Part shown: positions 14,971 through 29,204 of the stretch, piece after piece
Layout of the letters: each line of letters opens with the position of its first letter
Position numbering within the stretch: position 1 is the stretch's first letter
From: a virus
IMG/VR virus record: IMGVR_UViG_3300011113_000302
Location: 1-37,473 of that record
Reading direction: 5' to 3' (one strand)
DNA: 37,473 nucleotides
Program-made: the position numbers and the translations under genes
The notes under the pieces: generated by a model
Seen by the model: only the letters and a program-made list of their open reading frames with translations
Told to the model about the DNA's origin: nothing
Databases searched by the model: none

Positions 14971-14978
14971 TATTTATG
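14971..14978 (-). promoter_or_regulatory. Late promoter CATAAATA for the small virion protein
   Basis: CATAAATA on the minus strand fits NATAAATA exactly. The TAA stop codon of the 504-residue modular protein (14976-14974) is inside the box. The distance to the ATG is 29 bases, leaving room for a leader with an AGGAG site. Confidence 0.75.
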
Positions 14979-16488
14979 TTTTCTGCATATCGCTAGACAA
15001 TTCGGGGTCTTTTTGAAACTTGTCCGATGCCTCTTCTTTATCTTGCTTTTTTCCTTTTGCAGCATCTCTTACGATTTGTGCTTTACGGGATAGAGTTCTT
15101 GCCGCTGCACTTGGCTCGTCAACGGCTTCACTTACAGTCTTCCAGCCACCCCCCTTTGACTTGTACCACTTTGATGCCCAACCGTTGGCATATGCAGAAG
15201 GATACACATCAAACTTTTGTTTTGCTAGTGCTTTTGCTTTAGACCACAATGCAGGATTGGTCGGAGCATTCTTTTCTTCAAGATACTCAATCTCTTCGTT
15301 GACATGACCATACTTCTTTTTGTACCAATCAGGCATGCCATTCTTTTTTCTCCAATGTCTTACAGTCGCAGAATCATTTGCTTGGTCACGATACTTGTTT
15401 TCTGCTGTTGTGTTATGACTCTTCATTGCTTCTGCTGCTTCATGTGCATCTTTGGCAATGTGAACTAACGCCTCATTAGATTTCTTATGATACTCATGAC
15501 CTTCTAGTGGATGACGCTGTGATGGGCGACCTTCTTGAAGTTCAACTTCTTCTTTTACACGCTTACGAGCAAGTTCCATACTCTTGGCTGTTCTGTCAAG
15601 AGCAGCAGCAGCCAATGGCTTTTCTCTTGGTGCGCCCATGTTTGCCTTTACTGCTCTTTTTGCTTGCTTAAACCTGACCTTGTCGAGATATGATTTAGCT
15701 GTATCAGAACTAATCTCATCTAGATGTTCAACTTCTTCATTCTTAGGCTTGATGCCTTTTTTCTTCATGTTGATAGCAATCGCCGCTTGTTGTGCAGGAT
15801 TAGCTGCTTCGTTCAATTCACCACGCAGATAATTTGCTGCGGTAGAAATATAATCTTCAGCAAGTGTAATCTTTGATTGTACCCACTCTGGTAGATTTGT
15901 ATTCTCATCCATCATGTCAATTAAATCTTGAGCATTGAACATGAGTGAACGAAGTTGTGACATTGCCATATCACCTTCATAATCATATTCACGTGGATCT
16001 TTTGCCTCTCTGATTGGCGATACAATCGTAGGTGCTTTAAATGTTTTCTTAGGTGGTCCAGACACAAATCGTCCTTTCTTTTCTAATTGTTCATCAATCT
16101 CTGTTTCTTCAGAAACTCTTGATGCTTTCATGATACCACGAATTAATGGTGCTTTGAGTTGCTTATGTCTTGGTACAGCAATATGCTTATCTGACTTAGG
16201 ATGAGCATAAACATCATGCCCACCACCTGTACGTTTCAATTCCCAACCAGACTTTTTCAGATGAGCATGAACATCACGTGTCTTCATGCTCGACTCTGGC
16301 ATCTCATCAAGTTGTTCAACTGATTCAACTTTATATTTCTTTTTGATTTCGGCCTGCTTTGCAAGTCTTTCTCTGTCATCAGAAATGCTATAAGAATGAC
16401 CTAGTTCTTTGTAATAGTCGGGATGTGGTAGTCCCGACTTCTTACGCAGAGCCATTTGTCGTTGATGTAGTTTGTCTGCGATTGACAT
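14974..16488 (-). CDS. Modular repeat protein A with HicA-like module and L-x-E linkers
   Basis: A 504-residue, highly charged, soluble protein built of small modules. Linkers V-E-Q-L-D-E (57-62), T-E-I-D-E (129-133), G-E-L-N-E (223-227), E-E-V-E-H-L-D-E (251-258), E-E-V-E-L-Q-E (313-319) and E-E-I-E-Y-L-E-E (398-405) separate them. All fit the (L/I)-x-E cleavage rule of the T4 prohead protease gp21. Modules: about 68-125 resembles the HicA mRNA-interferase fold (L-K-K-S-G-W-E-L, G-G-H91-D-V-Y, I-A-V-P-R-H-K, I-R-G-I-M-K); about 168-222 is a helical Q-L-R to W-V-Q-S-K-I-T-L-A-E-D-Y-I block; 259-312 is basic helical; 321-397 has H-I-A-K-D-A-H-E-A-A-E-A-M; 406-450 contains F-D-V-Y-P-S-A-Y-A-N-G-W-A. 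Late context suggests a virion or prohead-core protein; polyprotein processing is inference. Confidence 0.8.
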   Translation of the reverse strand: MSIADKLHQRQMALRKKSGLPHPDYYKELGHSYSISDDRERLAKQAEIKKKYKVESVEQLDEMPESSMKTRDVHAHLKKSGWELKRTGGGHDVYAHPKSDKHIAVPRHKQLKAPLIRGIMKASRVSEETEIDEQLEKKGRFVSGPPKKTFKAPTIVSPIREAKDPREYDYEGDMAMSQLRSLMFNAQDLIDMMDENTNLPEWVQSKITLAEDYISTAANYLRGELNEAANPAQQAAIAINMKKKGIKPKNEEVEHLDEISSDTAKSYLDKVRFKQAKRAVKANMGAPREKPLAAAALDRTAKSMELARKRVKEEVELQEGRPSQRHPLEGHEYHKKSNEALVHIAKDAHEAAEAMKSHNTTAENKYRDQANDSATVRHWRKKNGMPDWYKKKYGHVNEEIEYLEEKNAPTNPALWSKAKALAKQKFDVYPSAYANGWASKWYKSKGGGWKTVSEAVDEPSAAARTLSRKAQIVRDAAKGKKQDKEEASDKFQKDPELSSDMQKT

Positions 16489-16490
16489 AA

Positions 16491-17549
16491 TTAGTCTTTC
16501 TTAGCCATTTTTGTAGCCGTGGCATACATTACTGATTTTGCTCTTTCACCATAACGCTGTTTGAAACCAGAAAGACCCTTCTTCATGCCTTTAACATACT
16601 CTTCTTTTTTCTTGGCTTCACCTTTTGTCAGTTCACGCTCATCGATTTGCTCAACTGATTCTGGCATTGTCTTTACACCGACAGTTTTACCAGCGGCAAT
16701 TTTTGGTTGTTTCTTCTTAGCTTCAAAACTTGCTTTTTGATCTTCATATTCTTTTGTCCACTCATCATTTGTTGGCTCTTCAACGATTGTTTCAACAACA
16801 CCATTTACTTTGTCGGCATCAATGACTTCAATTGTTGTACCGTCAATGTCCATTTCTTCTGTTTCAATTGGTGCTAGAACCTTCAGTCCATGCTCATTGT
16901 ACAACTCAAGCATTTCTGTGAATGATGCTGACTCATTGACACGTGTTGAACGCTTGTAGTTTTGACGGGCACCATAGCCATGACCTTTAGGACGACCAAC
17001 TTTTTCCGGATGATCATCATCTTCAGCATTATGTTCAAAGTCACGCTTATGAACAAGACCTGTTGCTGTCTTTGTGACTGAACCTGTTGCTGTCTTACCA
17101 GCATCCATGCGCTTTTTAGCATCTGCTACAGTTGGAAATGCTTCGTTCAGTTGCTCTTGTTCAGTTGCTTCAACTTCTTCGTTTGTTTTTTTGCCATAAT
17201 AATCATCTTTGTAAAGGCGTGACGTTGCTTTACGCATACCTTTTACTCTATTTTGAACTTTACTCGGATTATACATTGAAGTTGATATTGCTTTATCTAC
17301 ATATTTGTGTAGTGCTTTTCTACCTGCTGGTGTATCACCAACTTCATCCAATTGTTCAACTTCTTCTTTCTTGATTACACCACGACCAACCAACACATCT
17401 TTGTGTGTAATCTTATCTTTTGGATGTGCTAGTGCTGCCAAAGATTTCTCTTTGTCGGTTTTTGGTGTTGAACCATGACTTGTTTCTGCCATGATTTTTG
17501 CTGCTGCTTCTGCGACACCTTTCAGTGCTTTGTCATTGAAAATTGACAT
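16491..17549 (-). CDS. Modular repeat protein B with (L/I)-x-E linkers
   Basis: I chose ATG 17549 (AGGAG site) rather than an upstream extension, giving 352 residues. The architecture is the same as in the next gene: linkers E-E-V-E-Q-L-D-E (62-69), E-Q-E-Q-L-N-E (130-136) and E-S-V-E-Q-I-D-E (297-304), separating basic helical modules. One module (about 72-113) has K-G-M-R-K-A-T-S-R-L; one (about 138-200) has G-L-V-H-K-R and a G-R-P-K-G-H-G-Y-G motif that could contact nucleic acid. The C-terminal module (305-352) is Y-V-K-G-M-K-K with R-Y-G-E-R-A-K-S-V-M-Y-A-T-A-T-K, which I recognise as widespread in marine T4-like phages. Two bases separate it from protein A; they probably share a transcript. 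Probable head-internal protein. Confidence 0.78.
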   Translation of the reverse strand: MSIFNDKALKGVAEAAAKIMAETSHGSTPKTDKEKSLAALAHPKDKITHKDVLVGRGVIKKEEVEQLDEVGDTPAGRKALHKYVDKAISTSMYNPSKVQNRVKGMRKATSRLYKDDYYGKKTNEEVEATEQEQLNEAFPTVADAKKRMDAGKTATGSVTKTATGLVHKRDFEHNAEDDDHPEKVGRPKGHGYGARQNYKRSTRVNESASFTEMLELYNEHGLKVLAPIETEEMDIDGTTIEVIDADKVNGVVETIVEEPTNDEWTKEYEDQKASFEAKKKQPKIAAGKTVGVKTMPESVEQIDERELTKGEAKKKEEYVKGMKKGLSGFKQRYGERAKSVMYATATKMAKKD

Positions 17550-17572: not shown

Positions 17573-18886
17573 TTATCTTGTGATCTCTTCCCAGTCCATC
17601 GATGCATAGATGTCTGCACCGGCTAGAGTGGTAGCAGCACACAATGTGAGTTCATACGGTGTGCCTGTTAGTCCATTTCTTTCTAACTGAAATTTAAATA
17701 ATGCTTCTTTCAAAATATCAATTGGTGATGCACTTTGATTTGTTGCTCCTGTCCAGCCCGATGCTAATATTCTACCGCCGGTAATTGATGCACCATCAAC
17801 TTTATATTCTACGGCAGAGTTATCTCCTGCGCTGACCCAAGTTCCAGCACCTGTGTTTGCAGCGGCTCTGACTTGCCAGTTATAAAATGCGTTGTTTGTA
17901 ATACCTAAAATTGATAGTGCGGTCATAATCACAACGGCGTCTAAACGATTCTGCTTTAGTCGTATAGATAAAACAGGATAATATGTTCCTGCTGGTGCTC
18001 CCAAATCTACTGGTGAACCAATTGGTGTTTGAATTGCTTGTTGTGAACCATATAATTCATAACCACCCTCTGAAATTACTGTTGAACAGATTTGTTTCAA
18101 AGTAGAATTACTTGCGGTAACTCCAGTATTCTTGATTTCATATCGCAATGGTAGTGTTGCAGTTGTCATATAAGGAACTGTGTTTACATTATCATTGTGA
18201 AATATGTGTGCTGGAGTTAGTTTACCATCAACGACAAATCCACAACGAACATCACCAACACCAAGCCATTCAATATCCATCCAAAGAATATTTGTTTTGC
18301 TTACATCTAAACCACCAACGTGTTCAGCACCACCGGCTTGTGCTGAGTATCCCGTACCGTCAAACTTGTCTATATTCCAGTTTGATTGTGCAACTCTCTC
18401 CTCTGTAATCGTTCCTGATGTGTTGCTTCTCAATACAAAGTAATTTGTTGTGCCGTCATTCTCAAGATAGATGCCATTCTCAGCACCATGATAACCGACT
18501 CTTTGACGCACATTTGCTTTTGGCGGTTCCATAGCAAATGTTGACATCATCAACAAGGATTTACCTGGCTGGTATGAAAATACTTTTGTTGTCTCACGAA
18601 TCACTTCTGCATTTGCTGTGGTACCTACAGTCATCACAACCATACTCTGATTGTTTACGAAAGCATATGAACTGTTTCCTGCGGTGTTTGATGTTGCCCA
18701 CAATCCATTATCCGCAAAACGATGTGAACTATCAAATAGAGTAAGTGGTTGTGATATACGTAGACGACCAAACGCATCTGTCATAGTACCAGATGGTGAC
18801 AAACGATCAGACATCATATTCACTTCATAACGAGTGAATACTTGTCCTGAATCTATCTTGTGTAGGTCGGTTCTAAACTGTGCCAC
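17573..18886 (-). CDS. Virion structural protein (tail/surface type)
   Basis: A 437-residue beta-rich protein with low charge. The N-terminal block S-P-S-G-T-M-T-D-A-F-G-R-L-R-I-S (31-46) followed by L-T-L-F-D-S is familiar from virion proteins of many marine myoviruses. The remaining sequence is rich in Asn, Thr, Gly and aromatic residues, as in lectin-like or fibre-associated folds, and ends M-D-W-E-E-I-T-R. The start codon appears to be GTG (18886-18884), directly after the TAA of the previous gene (TAAGTG), with GGAA upstream; an internal ATG at residue 24 is less likely because it would cut into the conserved region. Flanked by CTS-tagged and modular proteins in the late block. Confidence 0.78.
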   Translation of the reverse strand: MAQFRTDLHKIDSGQVFTRYEVNMMSDRLSPSGTMTDAFGRLRISQPLTLFDSSHRFADNGLWATSNTAGNSSYAFVNNQSMVVMTVGTTANAEVIRETTKVFSYQPGKSLLMMSTFAMEPPKANVRQRVGYHGAENGIYLENDGTTNYFVLRSNTSGTITEERVAQSNWNIDKFDGTGYSAQAGGAEHVGGLDVSKTNILWMDIEWLGVGDVRCGFVVDGKLTPAHIFHNDNVNTVPYMTTATLPLRYEIKNTGVTASNSTLKQICSTVISEGGYELYGSQQAIQTPIGSPVDLGAPAGTYYPVLSIRLKQNRLDAVVIMTALSILGITNNAFYNWQVRAAANTGAGTWVSAGDNSAVEYKVDGASITGGRILASGWTGATNQSASPIDILKEALFKFQLERNGLTGTPYELTLCAATTLAGADIYASMDWEEITR

Positions 18887-19165
18887 TTAGCAATTCCATG
18901 CCTTTCTTGACCAATAATTTGCTGAAGTCTTATCACTTGTACCTTTAATGCCGCCTGATCTAGCACAGTATGATTTCTTACGTGCTGGTTGATCTTTTTT
19001 GATTGACAGATTCTTGTCACCAAAATTTATTTTTTGTGCTTTACCATCACCATCCGGATCGACGTAAACTTTTGATTTCTTTACGTCACCCGGCATAGGC
19101 TTGTTCAATGGTACTTCTTTACCCTGATATGTTGCTTCTTCTAAATGTTGTTTGAAAGTTTTCAT
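18887..19165 (-). CDS. CTS-like tagged protein with K-S-Y-C-A-R motif (92 aa)
   Basis: From ATG 19165 (TAATG with the upstream stop) it encodes 92 residues. The first ten, MKTFKQHLEE, closely match the capsid-targeting sequence MKTYQEFIAE of T4 internal head proteins, with L-E-E fitting the gp21 cleavage rule. The core has K-V-Y-V-D-P-D-G-D-G-K-A-Q-K (32-45), I-N-F-G-D (46-50), K-K-S-Y-C-A-R (63-69) and Y-W-S-R-K-A-W-N-C at the end. This fold-type module is widespread in phage genomes, function unknown. The two cysteines (67 and 92) could bind metal or form a disulfide. Internal head location is inferred. Confidence 0.8.
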   Translation of the reverse strand: MKTFKQHLEEATYQGKEVPLNKPMPGDVKKSKVYVDPDGDGKAQKINFGDKNLSIKKDQPARKKSYCARSGGIKGTSDKTSANYWSRKAWNC

Positions 19166-19692
19166 TAGCAGTTCCATTTTCTTAATGCCTTATTTACACG
19201 TGAGTTTGGATCGTTTGCTGTTTTAGATGAAGTTAATCTTCTTTTTAAACCACTCATTCTGGCACAGAATGACTTTCTTCTATTTGCTGCTTTAGAACCA
19301 GGCTTCAGTTTGCTTGGTTTTGTTGTTACAGCCATCGATAGTTTTGAACCCGGATTCTCACGACGATATGATTCGATACCTTTACGATTTAGACCGCCAG
19401 ACTCAGACTTACCTTCTTTACGCTGCCATGCTGCAACTTCTTTTAACTGATTCAACTGATCTTCTGTCAATGGACCATCGTCGGCTTCATATTCTTCTTT
19501 TGAAATTTTAGCAATCGCTTTGTTGACACCCATCTTCATCTTTGGCTTTGTGAATACAGGATTGTCTGCACCACCAGCATCACCTTCTCTCTCTTCTTTT
19601 ACACATGAACCTTTAGCATATGCTTTTTTGCCTGGTGCTGGTTTGTAACCTGGCCAGCATCTTTCTGTCATGTAATCTTTGAACGATTTCAT
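19165..19692 (-). CDS. CTS-like tagged protein with K-S-F-C-A-R motif (175 aa)
   Basis: A 175-residue basic protein. It begins MKSFKDYMTE, similar to the T4 capsid-targeting decapeptide, with M-T-E at the cleavage position. The next segment (C-W-P-G-Y-K-P-A-P-G, then G-S-C-V-K) is a small Cys-containing module that I have seen in other phages. The C-terminal third holds R-R-K-S-F-C-A-R-M-S-G-L-K and ends L-R-K-W-N-C. This is the same arrangement as the next gene's C-terminus, so the two are likely distant paralogues. The start overlaps the 853-residue gene (ATGA). The protein is probably packaged in the head; function unknown. Confidence 0.8.
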   Translation of the reverse strand: MKSFKDYMTERCWPGYKPAPGKKAYAKGSCVKEEREGDAGGADNPVFTKPKMKMGVNKAIAKISKEEYEADDGPLTEDQLNQLKEVAAWQRKEGKSESGGLNRKGIESYRRENPGSKLSMAVTTKPSKLKPGSKAANRRKSFCARMSGLKRRLTSSKTANDPNSRVNKALRKWNC

Positions 19693-22250
19693 ATGTAGTT
19701 TCTCTTTTTAAATGTTATAAGTGAGATACCTTTTTTCTTCAATTCATCTTCTTTTTGATCACCGATTGATGCTGTGGTTGTATCGCCAGTAAGTTCAGCA
19801 AGTCTACAATTCTTCATGCCATGTTTAGGGCACAACGCACCAGCGCCTGTGCCGTTACAAACAACTTGTGTTGCTTTTCCATCAACGTTTGGTTTTTCAC
19901 CCATGTCTCTAGCGGGAGATTCACCAGCACCTGCCATTGAGATGCCCGGTTCTATTCCTTTGTCGATTGATTCTTCGACTTTTTTCTGGAAGTTTTCTTT
20001 GATGCTGGCAAGACTGATTGTTCTTCTTCCTTCGGCAACTGGCTTGTCAAGGGCTGGTCGATCTTTTCTTCCAACACTGGCTCTAACTTTTTCAAGTTCT
20101 TTGGCTGTTGGGGTTGAACTATTTTGTCCATAAACTGCTTCAATCGCAGAATTATCAGGTGAATGTACTTCATACAAATCCTCTTTGAGTTTTACAACAT
20201 ACCTCTTTCCTACTTTTGCTACTGTGCCACCTTTTTGGTGTGCTTCTTTTGCTGCTGAACCACGAATGAAAAACAATCGTGTCTTACCATTCTTGTCTGT
20301 CAATAGTTTTTGTTTCTTTGTTTCTTCACTGATCTTACCTTTACCATAGTTTGATACATTAATTGGTGCGCCTTTGCGTTCTGGATCAGGATCATGACGG
20401 CGTTTTGCTCTTACAGCAGCAGCACGTTCACTCTTAGACAGTGATGCTGCTTTTGCGTTTGACATACATTTTGGTTTTGGTTCACCCGGTTCTCTAGCGC
20501 AAGGACCAATCGCTTCACCTTTAGTATTGTATCTTTTCCAATTACCTTCTGGATTAGTTTTACTAAACCACTTACGCAAATCTTCTTTGATCATACCTCT
20601 ACCCAACGTAAGTAGATTGAATGCTCCGGAATCGGACATTGTGTTTACTTCTTCTTGCTCTGTCATTTCTTCATCATCAGACTTGAGCAGACGAAGTGTT
20701 CGTGTGACTTCTTCTACCGTGTCACCCGTAACTGAAACTGTGACTGCTTCATTCATCTTAGCCATTTTGCTTTGGTGAGTTTCAACAGTCTTTGCAATCT
20801 TTTCTACTGGCACAAGACTACCGTGGACTGAACGATGTGTGACTTTACCATCTTTACCATAACGACCAAAACCATAATACTCAAGACCCATTGTGTTCAT
20901 GTCATCATGTGTGCCAGCATCTTTGTGTGGCTTCATGTCGGTACGAATTGGTGCTGTATCTTTTTTACCCAACTCTGTAGCTATCCAACCTTTTGCTTCA
21001 TCATTCTTTGGTGGTTTACCGACAAATTTTTGTATATTCTTAAAAAGACCCTCTAATTCTTTTGTCTTTGCTTCTACAACATCTGGTGATGCAGAACGCA
21101 AGTCTTCTGAATTATCAAACTCTACGTAGTTGTCACGAAATAGTTTACCAAACATTGGTCGTGCTGCTTGCACAGAATCCCATTTTTCTTTACGAATATC
21201 TTCTGGAACTGTGCGACCACCACGTTGACCACGTTCAATGTTTCTTTCTTTTGATACTTCATCGGCTGTGTTAACCATGATCATTGATGTTTCATAACCT
21301 AACTTCTCAAGCATCTCTTTGATCTTGGCATACTTTTCTGGGTCATCACCTGTACCATTGATGATTAGACCATTACGGCCATGTAATGCTAAACGCTGAC
21401 GCAACTCTGTAACATTCTTTGCACGTTTACGAACAGCATTACGCTGTGCTTCTTCATCCTCAGGCATTCTCTTATCAAGACCTTCTTTGTCCATCAAATA
21501 CTCAAGTGCTTTGTCTGAATTGATTTCTGTCAAGCCATGACCGTCTAGTGTTTTACTCAACACATAATCTTTGCCTGAGCCAGGACCGCCGCCAAGAAAC
21601 ACTGCTTTGAAAATGCCTTTGTCATGTACACCTTCACGAATGATTTCTTCGTGCAGTCTCATACCTTTACGCACATCATTGAACATTTGTTTGACATGTG
21701 CATGAGACATTGACGATGGTGCGCCTTTCTTGAATGAATCAAGATCGCCACTCTTTGCATGTTCACGCATCTTTGAAGCAGAAATGCCAGTCACACCTTC
21801 AGCATCAGGATCACGTTCGCCGGCTGAGTGTACTTTGATTTCTTTGAAATTGAAACGGGCACCTTCATGTGTGCCATTATACTTGTGTAACAGTTTGTGA
21901 TATTCTTCTGTGCGGTCAGAGCCACCAACCATATGAAGATGAGTTACACCTTTCTTGTGAAGTGCTTCTGCATGATCAAAGAATGTTGGTTTATCTTTAG
22001 ATGCTGCTGTGAAGTTCGTGCCAGGAAATGCACGTTTAGCGTGTTTGACTTTTTGATCTGCTGTAAGGGGATTTTTCTTAGCGTCCTGTGAGTGTGACAG
22101 AACGATGTGATGTGAGCCACCAACTTTGTCGGCAATCTCTTTGACTTTATTGACTAGTTTTTCGTGACCATTTGTAATCGGATTCATGCGACCAAATGCT
22201 AGGACGGCATGTTTCTCTTTCTGTTCACGTAGAAAATCTCTAAATTTCAT
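19689..22250 (-). CDS. 853-aa CTS-like tagged nucleotidylyltransferase and P-loop kinase fusion with phage modules
   Basis: A multidomain protein. Residues 1-9, MKFRDFLRE, resemble a capsid-targeting tag. Residues 15-165 form a cytidylyltransferase-type fold: G20-R-M-N-P-I-T-N-G-H29 (HxGH-like) and G-I-S-A-S-K-M-R-E (155-163, ISSTxxR-like). Residues 213-375 form a P-loop kinase with Walker A G-G-P-G-S-G-K-D (221-228) and an R-G-Q-R-G-G-R lid (339-346), similar to polynucleotide-kinase or zeta-type kinases. Later modules: Y-Y-G-F-G-R-Y-G (458-465), L-R-K-W-F-S-K-T-N-P-E-G-N-W (558-571) with G-P-C-A-R-E-P-G-E, and a Cys-containing end (C798, C807, C815). It leads a late unit with tandem late-like promoters. 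Fused NTase and kinase suggests cofactor (NAD-like) or nucleic-acid end chemistry; substrate unknown. Confidence 0.85.
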   Translation of the reverse strand: MKFRDFLREQKEKHAVLAFGRMNPITNGHEKLVNKVKEIADKVGGSHHIVLSHSQDAKKNPLTADQKVKHAKRAFPGTNFTAASKDKPTFFDHAEALHKKGVTHLHMVGGSDRTEEYHKLLHKYNGTHEGARFNFKEIKVHSAGERDPDAEGVTGISASKMREHAKSGDLDSFKKGAPSSMSHAHVKQMFNDVRKGMRLHEEIIREGVHDKGIFKAVFLGGGPGSGKDYVLSKTLDGHGLTEINSDKALEYLMDKEGLDKRMPEDEEAQRNAVRKRAKNVTELRQRLALHGRNGLIINGTGDDPEKYAKIKEMLEKLGYETSMIMVNTADEVSKERNIERGQRGGRTVPEDIRKEKWDSVQAARPMFGKLFRDNYVEFDNSEDLRSASPDVVEAKTKELEGLFKNIQKFVGKPPKNDEAKGWIATELGKKDTAPIRTDMKPHKDAGTHDDMNTMGLEYYGFGRYGKDGKVTHRSVHGSLVPVEKIAKTVETHQSKMAKMNEAVTVSVTGDTVEEVTRTLRLLKSDDEEMTEQEEVNTMSDSGAFNLLTLGRGMIKEDLRKWFSKTNPEGNWKRYNTKGEAIGPCAREPGEPKPKCMSNAKAASLSKSERAAAVRAKRRHDPDPERKGAPINVSNYGKGKISEETKKQKLLTDKNGKTRLFFIRGSAAKEAHQKGGTVAKVGKRYVVKLKEDLYEVHSPDNSAIEAVYGQNSSTPTAKELEKVRASVGRKDRPALDKPVAEGRRTISLASIKENFQKKVEESIDKGIEPGISMAGAGESPARDMGEKPNVDGKATQVVCNGTGAGALCPKHGMKNCRLAELTGDTTTASIGDQKEDELKKKGISLITFKKRNYI

Positions 22251-22282: not shown

Positions 22283-22297
22283 TATTTAGTATTTAGT
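22283..22297 (-). promoter_or_regulatory. Tandem late-promoter-like boxes (ACTAAATA twice)
   Basis: ACTAAATA occurs twice in direct repeat, at 22297-22290 and 22290-22283, sharing one base, in the 42-base gap before the 853-residue gene. The TAA stop of the upstream gene (22295-22293) is inside the first copy. Spacing to the ATG at 22250 is 33 and 40 bases. The second base differs from NATAAATA. Confidence 0.5.
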
Positions 22298-23000
22298 AGA
22301 TTTCCGTTGCTCCTGTGCTGGCCATGACACCTTGGCAGTGTATTTTATCAAGTTCTACAAGACGGTCAGGATCAATGTTGAAGAAATGTGCATGTTCAGT
22401 ATCAACACCAGCATCTTGAATTACGCCAATGTTTCTTCTGCAAACAATTGAGTAGTCATCAATCAGACTCGGACAAAATGAAAACAAACGAGTAATCAAC
22501 AAATCGGTAAATGTTTCAGCAGCATCACCAGCAAGCCATGTTGGCATTCTTTTCTTGAACACATATTTTCCAAAGTGATCATGTTCAGCCACATCAAACT
22601 CATCATGCAGTGTTGTTCTTGCTGAAAACTTGTATATTCTACGAACAGAGTGTACAAGTTGCATCAACTCAGGTGCTTGTTTCAGAAGCATTATCATTTT
22701 GAGCATCAGCACATTCTCTGCTTCACTTTTACGACCAATTGATGCGAATTGTGCTATATCTTTGTCACCAGAAAAGTCTGCAATCAGATTTACCAATTGA
22801 CTCATACTATCATACTTTTCTCTTTCTACTGGCTCTGGTGAGCCGTCAGCCAAAATCACAATGGCGTCTGGACATTTTCGTCTGAGTGACACAAGACCTT
22901 CAATCGTTTGCTCAAATCTTTCTTGTCGATTGAGTATGCCCATATTTGGATTGAGTGCAGATGTTACAATGAACAACTGTTGTGAGGGTATTAGTGCCAT
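22293..23000 (-). CDS. Glycosyltransferase-like hypothetical protein
   Basis: A 235-residue soluble protein. The start L-F-I-V-T-S-A-L-N-P (9-18) then R-F-E-Q-T-I-E-G-L and A-I-V-I-L-A-D-G-S-P (45-54) resembles a GT-A nucleotide-sugar fold, though no DXD motif is obvious. R-R-I-Y-K-F-S-A-R (119-127) looks like the G-R-Y motif of a phage family near other glycosyltransferases. It is the last gene of the cyclitol/sugar cassette and overlaps the SDR by ten bases, so a sugar-transfer role is plausible but unproven. Confidence 0.65.
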   Translation of the reverse strand: MALIPSQQLFIVTSALNPNMGILNRQERFEQTIEGLVSLRRKCPDAIVILADGSPEPVEREKYDSMSQLVNLIADFSGDKDIAQFASIGRKSEAENVLMLKMIMLLKQAPELMQLVHSVRRIYKFSARTTLHDEFDVAEHDHFGKYVFKKRMPTWLAGDAAETFTDLLITRLFSFCPSLIDDYSIVCRRNIGVIQDAGVDTEHAHFFNIDPDRLVELDKIHCQGVMASTGATEIY

Positions 23001-23662
23001 TCTACATCCGAAAATAGTTTGATTGTTTTGTAAGTTGCTTTTGATTTAATGACATGAACAATCGTGTCACTTACTTCTTTTGGTTCTAAAAACTTCTTTC
23101 TATCTGGGTGATTTTTTTGCATAGGTGTTTGTATACCACCAGGATGAATGCTTGTGACACGAATCTCATTCATCTGTGTGTGTAATTCTGCACCCAATGC
23201 ACCAGCAAATGCAGTGATAGCATGTTTAGATGCGGAGTAAACTGCTTCCCATTCCATCTCTTTTAGACCAGCAACAGAATTGATGAAGAAAATGTCGCTA
23301 CCTTTATTCAGTAACTTGAGTGCTTTTAGTGTTACATACATCGTGCCTTTGACATTCAAATCAATAATCTTGTCTATCGATTCAAATGAAAGTTCGTCTT
23401 TGAACAATCCCCACTCATACACACCAGCATTGTTTACAAGCACATCAATGTATGTGCCAATTGTTTTAAATGCATCTTCAACTTGTTTTGACTTTGTTAT
23501 GTCGCATTCAACCCATTCAAATGTATCGGGATATGAATACAAGTCCATAGGTGGTTGTGAACGTGATAGACCATAAACAAAATAGCCCTCATCAATTAAT
23601 CTACCTGCTATATCATAACCAAGACCATAACTACAACCTGTCACCACAGCAACCTTACGCAT
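22991..23662 (-). CDS. Short-chain dehydrogenase/reductase (SDR)
   Basis: A 223-residue NAD(P)-dependent oxidoreductase of classical SDR type. From ATG 23662: T8-G-C-S-Y-G-L-G15 binds the cofactor, N77-N-A-G80 is structural, and S129, Y142 and K146 (Y-S-A-S-K) are the catalytic set. I favour ATG 23662 over the adjacent ATG 23665 because it is five bases after GAGGAG. It directly follows the sugar-phosphate cyclase and overlaps its stop codon. This suggests oxidation or reduction of a cyclitol or sugar intermediate. Substrate inferred from neighbours. Confidence 0.9.
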   Translation of the reverse strand: MRKVAVVTGCSYGLGYDIAGRLIDEGYFVYGLSRSQPPMDLYSYPDTFEWVECDITKSKQVEDAFKTIGTYIDVLVNNAGVYEWGLFKDELSFESIDKIIDLNVKGTMYVTLKALKLLNKGSDIFFINSVAGLKEMEWEAVYSASKHAITAFAGALGAELHTQMNEIRVTSIHPGGIQTPMQKNHPDRKKFLEPKEVSDTIVHVIKSKATYKTIKLFSDVEWH

Positions 23663-24798
23663 CATATCTCCTCAAAAAGATCAATAGCCAATTTCATTTC
23701 ATCTTCTGTGATATCATTGACAATCTTGTAGTTGCCAATTGCAATAGGTAGTGGTGCATACTGATTGCCATTACGATGTTTGGTTGCATCACGCAGACTC
23801 TCCAACAAATACTTCATGTTTGTGAAGTCTTTATGAAATGTTTTCAGTTTCAATCTCTTTGCAACACCAAAGATTCGTTTCAATTGAACTGTGTCAATGT
23901 AACCACGAATGAATGAAATACACGAACTATACAAGCAGTCTAATGCTACTGCTTCACCATGTAACAACTCTGGTATGTTAGCCATCTCAATTACAGGACT
24001 AAATGTGTGACCAAAATCTACACAACGATCTAATCGTTTTTCCCACAGATTTGGTCCTAGTTCTGCAATCATATCTGTGATAGCAAGATTGATTACACGA
24101 ACTGGCACAGCACCATACTGAAATTTTTCATCAATCAATATTTCTGCATTCTCTTCTAGCAGATGAAATAGTTCTGGTGATTTGATGACGGCAAGTTTGA
24201 ATATCTCTGCAATGCCATTGACAATCTCACGTTCACTCTGTGTACGAATAAACTTTTTATCAATGTATGTCGCCAATGGTGGATAGTATGCACCAATACG
24301 ATTACGTCTACCTAAATGATTGACACCTACTTTTGAGCCGACTGATGCATCAACAATCGCCAGAAGTGTTGTGGGGATTTTGATATATGGAATTCCACGA
24401 CGATAAATGCTGCAAGCAAAGCCAACAATGTCAAGCAGGACACCCCCGCCAATTGCGATAATCGGTTCACGGCGTAACACTCCATTCTGTTCAAAAAAGT
24501 CTAAGATACGATCTACATTCTTCCAGTTTTTATTTTCTTCTTTGCAGTCTACACAAAGTATTTTGCAACTCAACTTGACAGCGCCAAAGTATGCTGCAAT
24601 GCTATCTTTGTATAGATCATGCACTTCAGAATCAATAACAATAATTCTACGATCACTGTTCGTGATGTTTACAATATCTTGATTACTTGGGCTGAAGATG
24701 TCAGCAGAGTATGTAAGTTTGAATTCTACTGGTAGTTCTGTTTTGACTGACCAAGTTCGTTTGAACTTGTCATAATCCATCATAAAGTCTAAACTCAT
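23662..24798 (-). CDS. Sugar-phosphate cyclase, 2-epi-5-epi-valiolone synthase-like
   Basis: A 378-residue member of the dehydroquinate synthase superfamily. G117-G-G-V-L-L-D123 binds NAD. E198 (N-G-I-A-E-I-F-K), H264 (F-G-H-T-F) and H280 (L-H-G-E-A-V) are the metal ligands. R-R-N-R-I-G-A-Y-Y-P-P (164-174) and K-V-G-V-N (156-160) look more like 2-epi-5-epi-valiolone synthases (cyclitol formation from sedoheptulose 7-phosphate) than like AroB, whose equivalent is K-T-A-V-N-H-P-L-G-K-N-M-I-G-A-F. Flanked by an SDR and an APH-type kinase and near a nucleotidyltransferase, it fits a short C7-cyclitol pathway. Activity is inferred from motif comparison; a 3-dehydroquinate or 2-deoxy-scyllo-inosose synthase remains possible. 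Confidence 0.85.
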   Translation of the reverse strand: MSLDFMMDYDKFKRTWSVKTELPVEFKLTYSADIFSPSNQDIVNITNSDRRIIVIDSEVHDLYKDSIAAYFGAVKLSCKILCVDCKEENKNWKNVDRILDFFEQNGVLRREPIIAIGGGVLLDIVGFACSIYRRGIPYIKIPTTLLAIVDASVGSKVGVNHLGRRNRIGAYYPPLATYIDKKFIRTQSEREIVNGIAEIFKLAVIKSPELFHLLEENAEILIDEKFQYGAVPVRVINLAITDMIAELGPNLWEKRLDRCVDFGHTFSPVIEMANIPELLHGEAVALDCLYSSCISFIRGYIDTVQLKRIFGVAKRLKLKTFHKDFTNMKYLLESLRDATKHRNGNQYAPLPIAIGNYKIVNDITEDEMKLAIDLFEEI

Positions 24799-25748
24799 TT
24801 CATCGCCTTACTAAACAGTTTACATGCATGAACATAAAAATATTTTGCTTTATCAATATCACCAGCAAGCAGTTTGAACGGAAGCATACGAATGAACTGT
24901 GATGCTTCTAGTATATCTATGAGTTTCATTTTATCTTCTGGTAACTCAGAGATAAAGTGTTTGTTGAATGTCTCAAAGTGATCCACACCACCATGAGAAA
25001 TAGACACATCAATTCCTTTTACACGAACATCATGATCGTTGATGAAGCCATAGTGACTACGAGAACATTGTAACACTTGTGCATAGTCAAGATACTTGGT
25101 GTTCCACATACTCTCATCATATAAGTCAATGAAGACAACACGATCTTCATTAAATGAATACATGATATTTTCTAGTGTAGGATTACCGTGAATGTTACAC
25201 TCATCATCATTTTCTAATTCTGCAAAGTATTCTTTCAGAACATGAAGATAACCACCTATACCTGTAACAACTTCACCATTGAAATTGTAAGTGCCATAAT
25301 AGAAGAAATCTTCAAACTCTTTTATTTTGATGGCATCTTCAATCTTCTGTTGTATCTCTTCAACAAAATAAAGTTTTGGTGTGCCAGCAATAGGTTCTTT
25401 TCTGATTGAGTGAAGTGTATTCAGTCCTCTCCAGACTGCTTGACTCATTCTGAAGATTTGTTCTTCACTCAGTGTGTCTTTACTAAGAATGCTTTTGATA
25501 TCACGAAAGCCTTCAAGATATTCCAAATCAAACCATGCTTCAACACTAGTAGAATCTACATTTACAACTTTAGGAAACAAACCAGGATACAGTGTGTTAT
25601 ATTCTTGTAACTTCTTCAACTGAGAATACCAACGCATGAAACCATATTCACGATTTTTTATACGTGAGATTTCTTTGCGAACAATCTTCTCATCTGGTAG
25701 CCAGTAAGTTTTACTGAGTGAGCCACCTTTCAATGGTATAGTTGTCAT
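24795..25748 (-). CDS. APH/choline-kinase-fold protein
   Basis: A 317-residue protein with the aminoglycoside-phosphotransferase fold. H187-G-N-P-T-L-E-N194 is in the position of the HGDxxxxN catalytic loop, and F-I-D-L-Y-D-E (206-212) supplies the metal-binding Asp. The catalytic Asp of HGD is replaced by Asn189, which is unusual and could mean weak, altered or absent phosphotransfer. Possible role: phosphorylating a cyclitol or sugar made by the neighbouring cyclase before nucleotidylation. The start overlaps the nucleotidyltransferase stop and the end overlaps the cyclase start (ATGA both). Confidence 0.75.
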   Translation of the reverse strand: MTTIPLKGGSLSKTYWLPDEKIVRKEISRIKNREYGFMRWYSQLKKLQEYNTLYPGLFPKVVNVDSTSVEAWFDLEYLEGFRDIKSILSKDTLSEEQIFRMSQAVWRGLNTLHSIRKEPIAGTPKLYFVEEIQQKIEDAIKIKEFEDFFYYGTYNFNGEVVTGIGGYLHVLKEYFAELENDDECNIHGNPTLENIMYSFNEDRVVFIDLYDESMWNTKYLDYAQVLQCSRSHYGFINDHDVRVKGIDVSISHGGVDHFETFNKHFISELPEDKMKLIDILEASQFIRMLPFKLLAGDIDKAKYFYVHACKLFSKAMK

Positions 25749-26467
25749 TTTGCACCTAGTGTTTGCCTTGCTATCTCAATACCGTATTCTTGAGGACTGC
25801 CTAGCACAATCGTTTCTTGATTGCTGCCAAGAGGATTCATGAATACTTGTTTATTAGATTGTATCATACTTTGTATCACATCTGCAATATACAATTCACC
25901 ATCTTTTTCGGCTAACTTGTTATAATATTCTAGGTAAAGATGACCAGTTAGAAAACCATAGAAGCCCGATGATGCATAAGGTGAGATTTGTTTCTTTTCC
26001 ACAATTTCAATTACCGTGTTTTCAAATGCACGAACATAAGAATACTTTGGTGAATTACCCACAAACACATCAATGTATGCATCATGCTTTGCGGTCAAGT
26101 CATCGGCAATAAAATCTATACGACGACCCTTGATGATTGTATCTGCATTGTGTACAAACGTTGGTAAGTTCTTGTTGTTCAGTTGCTCAATGCCAATCGC
26201 TGCTGTGTGTGCTTGACCTTTTGTATCACCGATATAAAGAATATTACTTTCGTTCCATCCCAATGGCTTGATTGCTTCAACAAGTTGCTCTTTGAAATAA
26301 ATGTCTCTTTTGTTGGCCACGAGAATAAGTTGATTGACCCAACCAAGATTCTTCAAAATATCGTATATGATTGTTTTGCCATTCCAAGGCAAAAGATATT
26401 TTGGTATGTCAAAGCCAACGTCATGGAAACGGGTGTTGTAACCCGCCATACAGATTATCAGATTCAT
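25745..26467 (-). CDS. Sugar-type nucleotidyltransferase
   Basis: From ATG 26467 (240 residues; chosen for ATGA overlap with the upstream stop and better ribosome binding site spacing than ATG 26476). The start I-I-C-M-A-G-Y-N-T-R-F (4-14) is a variant of the G-x-G-T-R loop, I-P-K-Y-L-L-P-W (21-28) contains the sugar-phosphate-binding PK motif, and N107-A-D-T carries the metal-binding Asp. G-Q-A-H-T-A-A (84-90) also fits NDP-sugar pyrophosphorylases. It probably activates a sugar or cyclitol phosphate with NTP for the neighbouring glycosyltransferases. Substrate unknown. Confidence 0.83.
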   Translation of the reverse strand: MNLIICMAGYNTRFHDVGFDIPKYLLPWNGKTIIYDILKNLGWVNQLILVANKRDIYFKEQLVEAIKPLGWNESNILYIGDTKGQAHTAAIGIEQLNNKNLPTFVHNADTIIKGRRIDFIADDLTAKHDAYIDVFVGNSPKYSYVRAFENTVIEIVEKKQISPYASSGFYGFLTGHLYLEYYNKLAEKDGELYIADVIQSMIQSNKQVFMNPLGSNQETIVLGSPQEYGIEIARQTLGAK

Positions 26468-27177
26468 TTGAGCCATTCTTCCATATCATTTCTCAAAAGA
26501 GAATGCCATGTGCTGTTATATTCTCCTGGTGAAAACGGATGATTGACATCACAATATACAAGATTCTCACCAACAAGATTGTGTCTCTTCCAGTTGGCAC
26601 TCATGAAATCTTCCATCATGTATTGCACACCAGAATTGTAGAACTCATCAATGTGATTGTAAGCATCAGCATACTTGTCCATATTTTCGGATGATGAGAA
26701 CGCAAACTGATCATTGCCAAAGTCACGATCAGGTGTCATGCGACAGTTTGGTATGTACAACTTACTATTGTCTAGTTCTTCAAATGGTATACGAGTGTTG
26801 ATAGCAAAGTCAAATCGTGAACGAATGACCCAATCAAACTTCATTTCAAAGTATTTTTCGTATTCATACTTTGTTTTCATACACTCTCTGATTGCATACA
26901 ACTGAGCATACGTTGACATACGACCATCTTTGACTTTCCAATTTGGTGATGGTGGTGGTGTGTTTGTATACTTTGACAAATCAACTGTAGGATTTGGTGA
27001 TGTTTTGAAACTGTATGCATTATACTTTGAAGAAATCTTTTGCATCTCTTCAGCGGGCATTTCCCATGAATGCAGAAAAACAGTTACATCATTATCTTTG
27101 ATAATATTTTCGTAATGATATGCATGGCCTTTTTCCCACATTCTTGGTTGGCCAGAGATACAGAGTGCTATTCTCAT
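26464..27177 (-). CDS. Glycosyltransferase-like protein
   Basis: A 237-residue soluble protein. It starts I-A-L-C-I-S-G-Q-P-R (3-12), followed by V-F-L-H-S-W (33-38). The core has F-D-W-V-I-R-S-R-F-D-F-A (113-124), which resembles a GT-A-like acidic motif (R-x-D) of viral and bacterial glycan genes. No membrane segment. It overlaps both neighbours by ATGA within the sugar/cyclitol cassette. Function is inferred from fold-like motifs and context; the family is not one I can name. Confidence 0.65.
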   Translation of the reverse strand: MRIALCISGQPRMWEKGHAYHYENIIKDNDVTVFLHSWEMPAEEMQKISSKYNAYSFKTSPNPTVDLSKYTNTPPPSPNWKVKDGRMSTYAQLYAIRECMKTKYEYEKYFEMKFDWVIRSRFDFAINTRIPFEELDNSKLYIPNCRMTPDRDFGNDQFAFSSSENMDKYADAYNHIDEFYNSGVQYMMEDFMSANWKRHNLVGENLVYCDVNHPFSPGEYNSTWHSLLRNDMEEWLK

Positions 27178-27854
27178 AGTTCACGCCCCACGTTTGCTTT
27201 GTTGTCTGTGATGCCAAATGGCTTGAGTTGTTCTTTTTCCATCACAACCATGCTGTTATAAAATGCTACAGAGTATAGATTGTGATATGCATCTAGTGCA
27301 TCTTGTGAAATTGGTGAGCCTTGAAAGTGCTGCTGATTGACTATATCAGTTGCCCGCTTACAGTGTTCGGTGAATGTACCAGCACCACGAAATACACCAC
27401 CCCATGGCTGTGGCCAATAACTTGTGTGAGTGTCTTCACAAATGTATACACCACCCTCTTTGATGTGTGGAAAAACTTTGTTGAGTGTAGTGATTTGATG
27501 ATTCATTACATGTGAGCCATCATCAATTACAATGTCAAACTTGTTTTGTGTTTTGAGAAACTCATCCCAAAACTCTGGATCACCTTGATCACCCATCACA
27601 ATCTTGACATCACCAGTATACTCATATTTCAAACATTCTTCGTTGATGTCAATGGCAACAACTGATGTATCTGGTCCAAAGTATTTCAGCCACATTTCAA
27701 TTGAGCCACCACCAAGCACACCAATTTCAAGTATGCGTGGTGCTTTACCTACAAACTTCTTTAGATGTCTTTCATAAACATCAAAGTAGCCTGACCATTT
27801 AGTAGATGGTTTTTCTAATTCCCAAAATAGTTCTTTGATTCTATTTGTCGTCAT
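27174..27854 (-). CDS. Class I SAM-dependent methyltransferase
   Basis: From ATG 27854 (226 residues; start inside the upstream gene's end, GAGG site). I-L-E-I-G-V-L-G-G-G-S (41-51) is the SAM-binding glycine loop, D69 follows in V-V-A-I-D-I-N, and D111-D-G-S-H115 is the motif IV region. The D-D-G-S-H pattern and the later E-D-T-H-T-S-Y-W resemble sugar O-methyltransferases of the MycE type, which use a divalent metal. Placed between two glycosyltransferase-like genes, it probably methylates a sugar or cyclitol. The acceptor is unproven. Confidence 0.85.
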   Translation of the reverse strand: MTTNRIKELFWELEKPSTKWSGYFDVYERHLKKFVGKAPRILEIGVLGGGSIEMWLKYFGPDTSVVAIDINEECLKYEYTGDVKIVMGDQGDPEFWDEFLKTQNKFDIVIDDGSHVMNHQITTLNKVFPHIKEGGVYICEDTHTSYWPQPWGGVFRGAGTFTEHCKRATDIVNQQHFQGSPISQDALDAYHNLYSVAFYNSMVVMEKEQLKPFGITDNKANVGREL

Positions 27855-28683
27855 ATTTTGCCTCAATCACTTTACGCCATTCTGGCACACGATCATACTG
27901 ATGTACAATAGTATACTCTATTCCTGTTGAAGTTACAACCTTGTCACCTTCTAATTTCGGTGATGGTTCTAAAAGATGTGGTCTGAATTGTTCGATCTTA
28001 CTTGGATCGGCAGTTGTACCTAATTGACATGCCCAACCATCTTCGGATTTCATGTACATTGATGTTTTCACATATGGATGTCTTGATACCATTACATTGA
28101 ATACTGCCTGATCTACAATTGGAATTGGTCTGTTGATACAGTTCAAAAATAACTGTAGCACCAAGTCTCTCATTGCATGACCTCGACCAGCAAGAACACC
28201 CACATTGAAAATTGTGTTGTTCTTGAAATCATCATAGATGCCTTGACCATAACATTGTGTGATATTTTCACGACCCCATGGCTCATCTTTATATTTCATG
28301 CTCTCGGAAGAGAATACCAAATCTTCTTGTGCTGAAAGATTCTCTTCTAACCATTCTACAGGATTCTTTTGAAAGATAACATCTCTTACGTCAGTAGTAA
28401 TTACATACCGATAATCATTGCTTTTGAGTAATTTGTAAATGTGAACAAAACGTTCAACATGGACCATAAGGTTCGATTGATACGTCAAATTACCTTCAGT
28501 GTCTTGATTGAATGCAATGATTGAGAAACCTGCGTTAGATACTTTTTGTACGGTATCTTTATCACAGTTCATGAGAATCAGAACTTTGTCACCTTCAAAG
28601 CCTGATTGATTGATAGAATTGACCCAATATTTTAGTTTGGACCAATCATAGTTGTTGGCACAGCCTACAATCACATCTTTCAT
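27841..28683 (-). CDS. Nucleotide-sugar transferase-like protein (GT-A fold)
   Basis: A 280-residue protein with T-T-D-V-R-D-V-I-F (95-103) as a DxxD-type metal site, N-V-G-V-L-A-G-R-G (162-170) and V-D-Q-A-V-F-N (189-195), the set seen in GT-A glycosyltransferases related to GT8-like families. No signal peptide. It is the first gene of the sugar/cyclitol cassette, 15 bases after the small tagged gene, with a GGAG ribosome binding site, and overlaps the methyltransferase by 14 bases. Confidence 0.72.
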   Translation of the reverse strand: MKDVIVGCANNYDWSKLKYWVNSINQSGFEGDKVLILMNCDKDTVQKVSNAGFSIIAFNQDTEGNLTYQSNLMVHVERFVHIYKLLKSNDYRYVITTDVRDVIFQKNPVEWLEENLSAQEDLVFSSESMKYKDEPWGRENITQCYGQGIYDDFKNNTIFNVGVLAGRGHAMRDLVLQLFLNCINRPIPIVDQAVFNVMVSRHPYVKTSMYMKSEDGWACQLGTTADPSKIEQFRPHLLEPSPKLEGDKVVTSTGIEYTIVHQYDRVPEWRKVIEAKYDDK

Positions 28684-28698
28684 AATATCTCCAATAAT

Positions 28699-28884
28699 TT
28701 ATTTTATGTCTGTTGTTGCCCAGCTTCCTGTGTATTTTTTATATTGTTGTTGACTTTGACCGGGCGTGTCATCAAGATATTTAGCAGTGAGTTCAGGTCG
28801 ACCCCACTCACCACCACCAGCCTTAGACACAAACTCTTGTCTGCTATCTTTGTTTGCCTTTAGATAATCTTTGAATGTTTTCAT
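28699..28884 (-). CDS. Small CTS-like tagged protein (61 aa)
   Basis: From ATG 28884 (ATGA overlap with the Fe-S carrier stop) it encodes 61 residues. The first eight, MKTFKDYL, match the capsid-targeting-like tag of the late proteins, but position ten is Ala and no (L/I)-x-E site follows directly, so it may be uncleaved or degenerate. The rest is polar with [16 protein letters not shown] and no recognisable domain. It separates the Fe-S carrier from the sugar cassette. Confidence 0.65.
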
Positions 28885-29204
28885 ATCGTGAATGATGAGC
28901 CGCAACCACAAGTTGCAGTTACGTTTGGATTTTTGATTGTAAATGAAGCACCCATCAAATCTTCTTTATAATCAATCACGGCTTCATTCATATATTGCAT
29001 ACTCATACTATCTATGACAACTCCAACACCATCTCTTTCAAATGTAAAGTCATCATCTGCTGCTGGCAATTCTTCTAATGTAAAACCATACTGAAAGCCA
29101 GAACAACCACCACCTTGAACGAAAACCCTCAACTTCAAGTCAGGATCTTCTTCAGCAATAATTGTTTTGATTTTCTTTACGGCAGAATCAGATATAGTAA
29201 TCAT
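28881..29204 (-). CDS. A-type iron-sulfur cluster carrier (IscA/ErpA-like)
   Basis: A 107-residue HesB-family protein that binds and delivers Fe-S clusters. The three invariant cysteines are present: C34 (G-G-C-S-G-F), C99 and C101 (C-G-C-G-S-S-F). Length and spacing are normal, so activity is likely. Such genes are known in marine T4-like phages. In this phage it could maintain host or phage Fe-S enzymes during infection. The start shares a base with the upstream stop (TAATG). Confidence 0.94.

Follow-up and report, generated by a model that had tools for sequence, protein, structure and literature searches.

Introduction

Why do five genes of a single viral fragment begin with nearly the same short peptide? 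The fragment, IMG/VR record IMGVR_UViG_3300011113_000302 (37,473 bases; here called the window, meaning the whole stretch of DNA that was analysed), comes from a T4-like myovirus. A preliminary description of it had proposed that the shared N-terminus, M-K-x-F-x-x-(F/Y)-(L/I)-x-E, resembles the capsid-targeting sequence (CTS) of the T4 internal head proteins. Our analysis supports this core claim. The peptide is very likely a packaging tag. In aquatic relatives of T4 it probably marks proteins carried in the head, because relatives of some tagged proteins have been found in purified virus particles, and perhaps proteins that are delivered to the host.

Tagged genes of the window

All five N-terminal tags were confirmed in the window, on the minus strand, with two gene starts re-placed (at 19165 and 28884). 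The open reading frame (ORF) 18887-19177 opens four codons (MELLMKTFKQHLEE) upstream of MKTFKQ; because a relative (L012) starts at MKTFKQ, the start was placed at 19165, and the true extent of this gene is probably 18887-19165. The ORF 28699-28911 is better started at 28884 as MKTFKDYLK, which matches its relatives. The tagged genes and their tags are as follows.

19689-22250, minus strand: tagged protein of 853 amino acids with an NMNAT/cytidylyltransferase-like domain, a P-loop kinase and further small modules (Pfam CTP_transf_like, Zeta_toxin/AAA_33)
22224-22250, minus strand: its tag MKFRDFLRE, CTS-like, ending in L-x-E; predicted local distance difference test score (pLDDT) <50 over residues 1-9
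19165-19692, minus strand: tagged protein of 175 amino acids with CWPGYK and DUF6321 (E 2.5e-16)
19663-19692, minus strand: its tag MKSFKDYMTE, with M, not L/I, two residues ahead of the Glu
18887-19165, minus strand: tagged DUF6321-like protein of 92 amino acids (phrog_7595, E 3.7e-11)
19136-19165, minus strand: its tag MKTFKQHLEE
29476-30699, minus strand: tagged DUF6267, ligase-like protein of 407 amino acids (PF19782, E 5e-114)
30673-30699, minus strand: its tag MKFMDYIKE; the DUF6267 relatives are mostly CTS-like at the N-terminus
28699-28884, minus strand: ORF of 61 amino acids, with a degenerate tag MKTFKDYLK lacking Glu, joined to a C-terminus shared with longer tagged proteins, some of them HAD-like

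Residues 4 and 7 of the T4 CTS serve targeting and residues 8 and 10 serve cutting, at an L/I-x-E motif (PMC9026906; this and all other papers are cited for the portions available). The window tags likewise form a leader of about 10 residues with an aromatic or hydrophobic residue at positions 4 and 7, two of them being one residue shorter. The preliminary description had counted correctly that four of the five tags have a Glu, three of them with L or I two residues earlier; the (L/I)-x-E end is exact in these three and takes an M variant in one, and the fifth tag (28699), which lacks the Glu, is a poor CTS.

Enrichment of the tag at protein starts

A CTS-like regular expression of 9 or 10 residues, fixed before the comparison with virion proteomes, was used alongside looser forms. 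Within the window the CTS-like pattern matched at 3 of 163 first methionines of ORFs and at 1 of 296 later methionines, the single later one being the true start of the 18887 gene. Across 11 phage genomes (S-SM2 represented by the first 174,079 of its 190,789 bases) it matched 27 of 6771 first methionines, spurious ORFs included, and 4 of 11896 later ones. The tag itself had guided the choice of two of these genomes (G015 and G028), and a further two (G001 and G002) are close relatives of the window; the remaining seven alone gave 14 of 4126 versus 4 of 7398. The T4 matches are exactly ipII, ipIII and gp61.1. The last of these, a hypothetical protein of 54 amino acids encoded beside the primase gene (AF158101, 18966-19130) and starting MKTFKEFIKE, is a candidate for a further internal protein of T4.

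At the DNA level, at least 120 IMG/VR stretches contain the exact form of MK(S/T)FxxFLxEA, against 2 for a control of permuted codon order, and it recurs in 5 stretches of a 257 Gb prokaryote collection. The distance from stop codon to tag is at most 45 codons in 114 FL-reading frames from 111 of the 120 stretches, and 5 frames have another Met there.

A looser CTS-like pattern fitted 79 of the 90 distinct N-termini in the DUF6267 family and 62 of the 85 distinct ones in the nucleotidyltransferase (NTase) family. Its baseline was 44 of 1398 ORFs of at least 150 amino acids in the 11 genomes, and in the same loci as the relatives it matched 225 of 1043 ORFs of that length, the DUF6267 and NTase families included. 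These fractions are the informative numbers, the N-terminal profile of the two families being shaped by its own regular expression. The best 80 loci were kept in the searches for relatives; one near-relative search had the tag among its six search peptides and so leans to tagged proteins, and two others used internal peptides only. Loose patterns are unspecific: in S-CRM01 the looser form matches an ORF of 749 amino acids that by eye reads like a DNA polymerase.

One leader on many protein families

The preliminary description had set as a check a search for tag starts beyond the window, and these proved to be enriched at first methionines and spread across unrelated families. After removal of the first 12 residues, 432 distinct tagged ORFs (at least 60 amino acids) fell into 88 single-linkage clusters, which is a rough family count, one cluster of 273 being joined through shared modules. 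Alignment of 78 representatives from separate BLAST clusters gave the consensus MKTFxxFLxEA with a mean column identity of 5%; the sole invariant columns, M1 and E10, are demanded by the selection pattern, and many of the representatives stem from a pattern demanding MK(S/T)FxxFLxEA or its F form. Left out of the 78 were the spurious-looking L187_6740, L242_5481 and L262_5129 and the representatives from T4 (2), P-SSM2 (2), Melnitz and G002; L058:20963, L011:13239 and the G015 and S-SM2 representatives were left out of a later step.

Pfam matches at E 0.01, among these 78 and 29 further representatives, comprise ADP-ribosyltransferase (2), 2'-5' RNA ligase/LigT/Acb1 (one protein), DnaJ, methyltransferase, glucosaminidase, lytic transglycosylase, 5'-nucleotidase-like, Zeta-toxin-like kinase (3), cytidylyltransferase-like (6), DUF6267 (3) and DUF6321 families; at least 53 of the 78 had no match at this threshold. 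The tag comes and goes on one and the same enzyme, both forms existing in the DUF6267 family (tag-less in S-SM2, S-SM1, Syn9 and S-SZBM1) and in the NTase family (tag-less in L506, L462, L516, L504, L508 and L491).

A tagged 2H phosphoesterase (L262:847-1464) matches the 2'-5' RNA ligase family (E 3.6e-12) and the anti-CBASS family Acb1 (E 3.8e-6) at the Pfam cut-off. Tagged proteins of L184, L230, L214, L206 and L209 have starts that look ADP-ribosyltransferase-like by eye (RTSHYTS, NVYRG); those of L184 and L209 have no Pfam match, and ADPrib_exo_Tox was called by Pfam in two of the 78 representatives. Behind the tag of several enzymes that are otherwise unrelated, among them cyanophage NTases and S-CREM2 ORF12 and ORF14, a small module, GLxxxGHGxW/GLEYRGFGYW, was recognized by eye and may be a second packaging element; residues 447-534 of 19689-22250 were placed with it through a likeness to ORF14 that appeared in a small protein set only.

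Tagged proteins in published virion proteomes

The presence of tagged proteins in virions, a check proposed in the preliminary description, could be followed through published mass spectrometry, which places a tagged NTase relative in the virions of S-SM1, S-CREM2, S-SCSM1 and S-SZBM1. A putative citidylyltransferase (T4-GC190) is named for purified S-SM1 virions (PMC3037559) and starts MKKFSAFLNEA; the NMNAT contained in S-SCSM1 virions (PMC9602691) is tagged MKSFLQFLKEA; and the cytidylyltransferase ORF140 detected in S-SZBM1 virions (PMC9146016, Table 1) is tagged MRFRQFIIEA.

For S-CREM2, 52 virion proteins are listed (PMC10665884, Table 3) and the tag was counted over all 219 coding sequences. 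A looser pattern matched none of the 24 structural proteins detected, 4 of the 28 remaining detected ones (non-structural or unassigned) and 1 of 167 undetected ones (4/52 versus 1/167, one-sided Fisher p 0.012); this pattern was written together with the test itself, unlike the earlier-fixed CTS-like pattern, which gave 3 of 52 detected versus 0 of 167 undetected (Fisher p 0.013). The preliminary description had named equal frequency of the tag in non-virion proteins of related phages as an outcome that would count against packaging; in this phage the tag is rarer among undetected proteins. The four tagged and detected proteins are ORF6 (SAM hydrolase), ORF13, ORF14 (APH/ChoK-like kinase) and ORF154 (cytidylyltransferase), and the undetected one is ORF175, of 55 amino acids. 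Near-tags that were left uncounted are found in two more detected proteins, the Cas9-like nuclease ORF12 (RFASFMAE/AA, residues 18-25) and ORF136 (MQTFSMFFSE). When S-SM1, S-CREM2, S-SCSM1 and S-SZBM1 are pooled, 6 of 10 annotated genes with the CTS-like pattern are detected, and about 1.8 would be expected at overall detection rates. A kinase in S-CRM01 virions is reported second-hand (PMC10665884); we infer that it is the PKN8 kinase SCRM01_130c, which starts MISFDQFLSE and fits the looser pattern only.

The NTase domain of the window, compared with all frames (six-frame translation, at least 50 amino acids), matched S-SCSM1 ORF91 (5e-36), S-SZBM1 ORF140 (6e-32) and S-CREM2 ORF154 (4e-21), all of which are in virions. 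The CAREPGEPKPKC module of 19689-22250 matches the virion protein S-SCSM1 ORF29 (E 6e-8), and the C-terminal half of 19165-19692 has 62% identity over 98 residues to the end of the same protein and is also similar to the detected S-CREM2 ORF137. No match to 18887-19165 was found at E 0.001 in all frames of S-CREM2, S-SCSM1 and S-SZBM1. Two likenesses seen with a hand-picked virion set (15 S-CREM2, 13 S-SCSM1 and 6 S-SZBM1 proteins) were lost at E 0.001 against all frames and were not used, namely that of 18887 and the CAREPGEPKPKC module to S-CREM2 ORF160 and that of residues 447-534 of 19689-22250 to S-CREM2 ORF14.

The preliminary description had included large enzymes in the cargo. This stands for the NTase/kinase fusion, which has relatives in virions, but the DUF6267 ligase-like protein is without proteomic support. 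In the three phages whose gene lists are complete, its relatives (S-CREM2 ORF87, S-SCSM1 ORF257 and S-SZBM1 ORF141) are untagged and undetected, which fits the role of the tag but does not establish packaging of the tagged form.

Prohead protease and the gp23 site

A comparison with the prohead protease gene had also been suggested, and gp21 was found in relatives. Of 12 contigs with relatives of window genes, 7 encode a member of the S77 (gp21) family. The PF03420 protease was found in 11 of the 16 tagged contigs that reach 84 kb and in all 8 that reach 168 kb, and a gp21-family protease in all 5 named phages of one scan and all 4 of another. T4 gp23 is cut at E65. At the matching place, gp23 reads (F/I/M)-(L/I)-x-E in 10 relatives, with cut points (slashes) outside T4 assigned by position: T4 SFLTE/AE, Melnitz AFLSE/AA, HTVC008M AFLGE/IA, P-SSM2 NFLSE/AP, G028 SFLGE/AA, G015 SFLYE/TG, Syn9 and S-SM1 ILTE/TL, G001 ILQE/TG, G002 ILSE/TG and S-SM2 MIAE/QP. 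The gp23 sites of the relatives resemble the end of the tag.

In SSM2_108 (GU071095, 91376-91804) and L177:3696-4238 the N-terminal sequence of mature gp23, TPTNSVGNGGYTSAGGQTVAGYD, is repeated directly behind the tag (BLAST E 9e-9 for SSM2_108; by eye for L177), a layout that looks as if the start of the capsid protein had been reused on another protein.

Internal sites at module boundaries

Four modules of the window proteins (kinase, DLxxWF, AWQRK and KNxPTNP) recur near the N-terminus of other proteins. A hydrophobic-x-Glu triplet stands directly before the module in 78 of 83 internal copies (37/37, 22/26, 7/8 and 12/12 in the order given) and in 17 of 18 N-terminal copies (6/6, 4/4, 5/6 and 2/2); these counts take copies fitting an anchor regular expression, kinases without a GxxD start being left out and 4 of the 105 copies, which lie at 23-60 residues, falling in neither class, and the copies are related by descent and are not independent trials. 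The triplet is the leader's own end in about 11 of the 18 N-terminal copies; L218, L041 and L055 have just three or four residues ahead of the module, and L408, L517 (kinase) and L267 have a second triplet after the tag. At other offsets the triplet reaches at most 6/37, 3/26, 3/8 and 4/12, except five residues ahead of the kinase (30/37), where a second such triplet is common. In a wider kinase set, a triplet of this kind falls in a 13-residue stretch ahead of the P-loop in 61 of the 66 that are fused. Stand-alone and internal forms can be set side by side: L440 starts MKTFNTFVVE/DLRKWF and its internal counterpart in the window is GRGMIKE/DLRKWF, and L466 starts MLKFKDFILE/VAAWQRKEGK, with NQLKE/VAAWQRKEGK as the internal counterpart. 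The sites and the multi-module proteins concerned are the following.

21633-21635, minus strand: Glu 206 of 19689-22250, internal site EIIRE/GVHD at the NTase/kinase junction; triplet in register, pLDDT <50 over residues 201-209
20583-20585, minus strand: Glu 556 of 19689-22250, internal site GMIKE/DLRKWF ahead of the CAREPGEPKPKC module; triplet in register in relatives
19438-19440, minus strand: Glu 85 of 19165-19692, internal site NQLKE/VAAWQRK; triplet in register in relatives
14974-16488, minus strand: untagged multi-module protein of 504 amino acids with a HicA-like domain (E 3e-10), a KNxPTNP module and repeated (V/I)-E-x-(L/I)-x-E linkers
16491-17549, minus strand: second untagged multi-module protein with an excess of the same linker type

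The segments of pLDDT <50 in the AlphaFold2 model of 19689-22250 are the tag (residues 1-9), the NTase-kinase junction (201-209) and residues 256-284. The motif [VI]Ex[LI]xE was observed three times, with 0.03 expected (p 0.0005), in each of 14974-16488 and 16491-17549, and gave one match, in gp41, among 13 other window proteins. Hydrophobic-x-Glu sites lie at Glu 62, 133, 258, 319 and 405 of 14974-16488, where EQLDE and TEIDE sites flank the HicA-like domain, and at Glu 69, 136 and 304 of 16491-17549. Counting L/I-x-E by itself gave a weak signal in the two multi-module proteins (p 0.04 and 0.35), with the primase and 23662-24798 also below 0.05, and was set aside.

Judged by these sequences, it is somewhat probable that effector modules (NMNAT, kinase, CAREPGEPKPKC, DUF6321, KNxPTNP and HicA-like) are strung together with prohead-protease sites to form a protease-punctuated polyprotein cargo, separated in the head. 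One N-terminal tag, or tagged partners alongside, would bring the modules into the head, and a gp21-type protease would separate them; a module could then shift between a tagged gene of its own and a place inside a longer chain, since the two share the same terminal cut site. Such cargo would be new as far as literature searches reach: the open-access papers searched, subscription papers lying outside the search, contained none of six tag strings and included one review that mentions both the capsid-targeting sequence and cyanophages, and among the papers listed there was, by title and abstract, nothing on prohead-protease polyproteins or capsid-targeted marine phage cargo.

Proposed mechanism and alternatives

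We consider it highly probable that the tag is a T4-type CTS. It would bring tagged proteins into the prohead core, a gp21-type protease would cut after the tag Glu and leave the cargo loose in the head, and the cargo would leave the head together with the DNA at infection; core binding, cutting, head location and ejection are steps that we infer for the tagged proteins. The cargo encoded in the window would then be the NMNAT/kinase multi-domain protein, the two DUF6321-type proteins and the RNA-ligase-like protein.

Several observations weigh against a CTS. No mature N-terminus was seen, and the window fragment has no head genes. The CTS-like pattern misses ipI and alt in T4 and has no match in HTVC008M, where leaders are shorter or degenerate. 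S-SCSM1 ORF30 is tagged and is not labelled as a virion protein in its record, and S-SZBM1 ORF191, ORF192 and ORF64 fit the CTS-like pattern and are absent from the virion table. ORF192 is a full-length relative of 19165-19692, and ORF64 is the metabolic regulator CP12, so that the pattern does give false positives; the looser pattern also matches two non-virion genes of S-SCSM1, ORF159 and ORF186. Untagged proteins of the same gene block were detected as well (S-CREM2 ORF155 and ORF156; S-SCSM1 ORF89, ORF90, ORF92 and ORF93).

The tag could be a CTS and the internal hydrophobic-x-Glu sites mere linkers that help recombination, with multi-domain cargo carried whole. Cutting of the internal sites by gp21 is presumed, the kinase and DLRKWF sites could belong to a conserved helix, and the module copies share descent, all of which suits such linkers; yet the sites abut four unrelated modules, in internal and N-terminal copies alike (78/83 and 17/18), the sequence before them is variable, and the NTase-kinase site falls within a stretch of pLDDT <50, and we regard whole carriage as rather unlikely. 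The peptide might instead be a general virion-incorporation or tail-association signal, a proposal that draws on the fact that virion proteomes do not separate head from tail, but its absence from all 24 detected structural proteins of S-CREM2, together with its match to T4 ipII and ipIII and to the gp23 site, makes this very improbable. That late genes share this N-terminus through effects of translation or composition, with no function at the protein level, is scarcely credible: ATG AAA starts are indeed common in AT-rich phages and CP12 of S-SZBM1 fits the pattern by chance, but the permuted DNA pattern was found in two stretches, and DUF6267 and NTase homologues keep the aromatic residue, the L/I and the Glu at fixed spacing while their neighbours vary, with extension-less forms in existence.

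Gene context and predicted functions

The minus-strand gene order, with names assigned by comparison, runs gp43, uvsX, gp41, then a variable block, then gp61, nrdA, nrdB and thyX. Directly downstream of the tagged genes lies a gene whose product matches S-SZBM1 ORF190, which is detected in virions.

17573-18886, minus strand: virion structural protein (phrog_1645, E 2.7e-136)

The stretch 22293-28683, between the DUF6267 and NTase genes, resembles a block of sugar or surface-glycan genes on reading of the translations, with no family search; these suggest a nucleotidyltransferase, an SDR protein, glycosyltransferases and a 3-dehydroquinate synthase-like protein.

The best Foldseek match of the NTase-kinase half is NadR (6gyf, E 1.7e-7, TMq 0.28), with adenylate and polynucleotide kinases among the further matches of the kinase part. 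Ligases are recognized by the motifs KxDG, EGxV and KxK. In the DUF6267 protein, described earlier as KxDG ligase-like, KxDG is borne out as invariant across relatives, as is EGxV, and motif V reads KLV; the likeness in fold is less firm, Foldseek alone giving nothing under E 0.001 and the top three VIA-align matches being RNA ligases (1xdn Z 7.2, 2hvr Z 6.9 and 8uci Z 6.2), all under Z 8. These predictions could point to a nucleic-acid-repair kit (kinase, HAD phosphatase and ligase) or to NAD salvage (NadR-like), and the data do not decide. L408:2595-5071 carries three consecutive, separately tagged genes, for a DUF6267 ligase-like protein, a P-loop kinase and a HAD-like nucleotidase (just below the Pfam cut-off), and this trio looks like a nucleic-acid repair set.

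No Glu is present at the tag end in 28699-28884 or in its relatives of 61 and 70 amino acids, and the other matches of 28699-28884 are to longer proteins, many of which carry the tag, and cover just the C-terminal part of these. At the corresponding locus downstream of DUF6267 (L101, L104, L112, L114, L125, L126, L366 and G001:168404) the tag-like start and the C-terminus GxWGRPELTxKYxxDTPGQ are kept, and the middle varies: it is a HAD-like enzyme, judged by a TIFDIDDTL start and, for L101, a weak Pfam match, or a different domain, or it is missing. The small ORF is probably the remnant of a cargo slot with exchanged contents.

Comparison with known systems

Most potential injected proteins of ocean and lake T4-like phages are unknown, and with a tag that can be read, candidate injected effectors can be listed directly from genome sequence. 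The tag offers a reason for the NMNAT, kinases and SAM hydrolase in cyanophage virions, and what enters the host from these phages within the first minute of infection can be put to a direct test. The protease-punctuated cargo, if true, would be a new way of packing many activities into one head.

The tagged proteins share with T4 IPI-IPIII and Alt a leader of about 10 residues, key residues 4, 7, 8 and 10 and the L/I-x-E cut motif (PMC9026906, PMC12373910). T-even internal proteins have the leader alone in common and block restriction enzymes (PMC12373910); here, too, one leader stands on unrelated proteins, and related phages have the S77 protease and the gp23 site. In contrast to T4, where published accounts place the leader on small internal proteins and name Alt as the packaged enzyme (PMC9026906, PMC12373910), it is found here on enzymes and multi-module proteins, and cutting and injection are presumed by comparison with the T4 system. 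The NMNAT, kinases and SAM hydrolase of cyanomyovirus virions belong to the same families as the tagged proteins, and the papers describing them, in the portions available, mention no targeting tag (PMC10665884, PMC9602691, PMC9146016).

Polyvalent proteins of phages and plasmids also join disparate effector domains in one polypeptide and are thought to be injected (PMC5512222), and several domains are likewise joined in 19689-22250 and 14974-16488. The polyvalent proteins are proposed to be processed by built-in zincin-like peptidases (PMC5512222, whose main text, in the portion available, never uses the word cyanophage), whereas prohead-protease-like sites stand at the module boundaries here, and no Pfam match to a zincin-like peptidase was found in the 10 window proteins scanned. 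Several gp21-type cuts per chain are known for the T4 core proteins gp22 and gp67 and for the prohead protease substrates of giant phages (PMC9026906). Those substrates are scaffold proteins or propeptides, whereas the chains described here would be made up of recombining enzyme modules.

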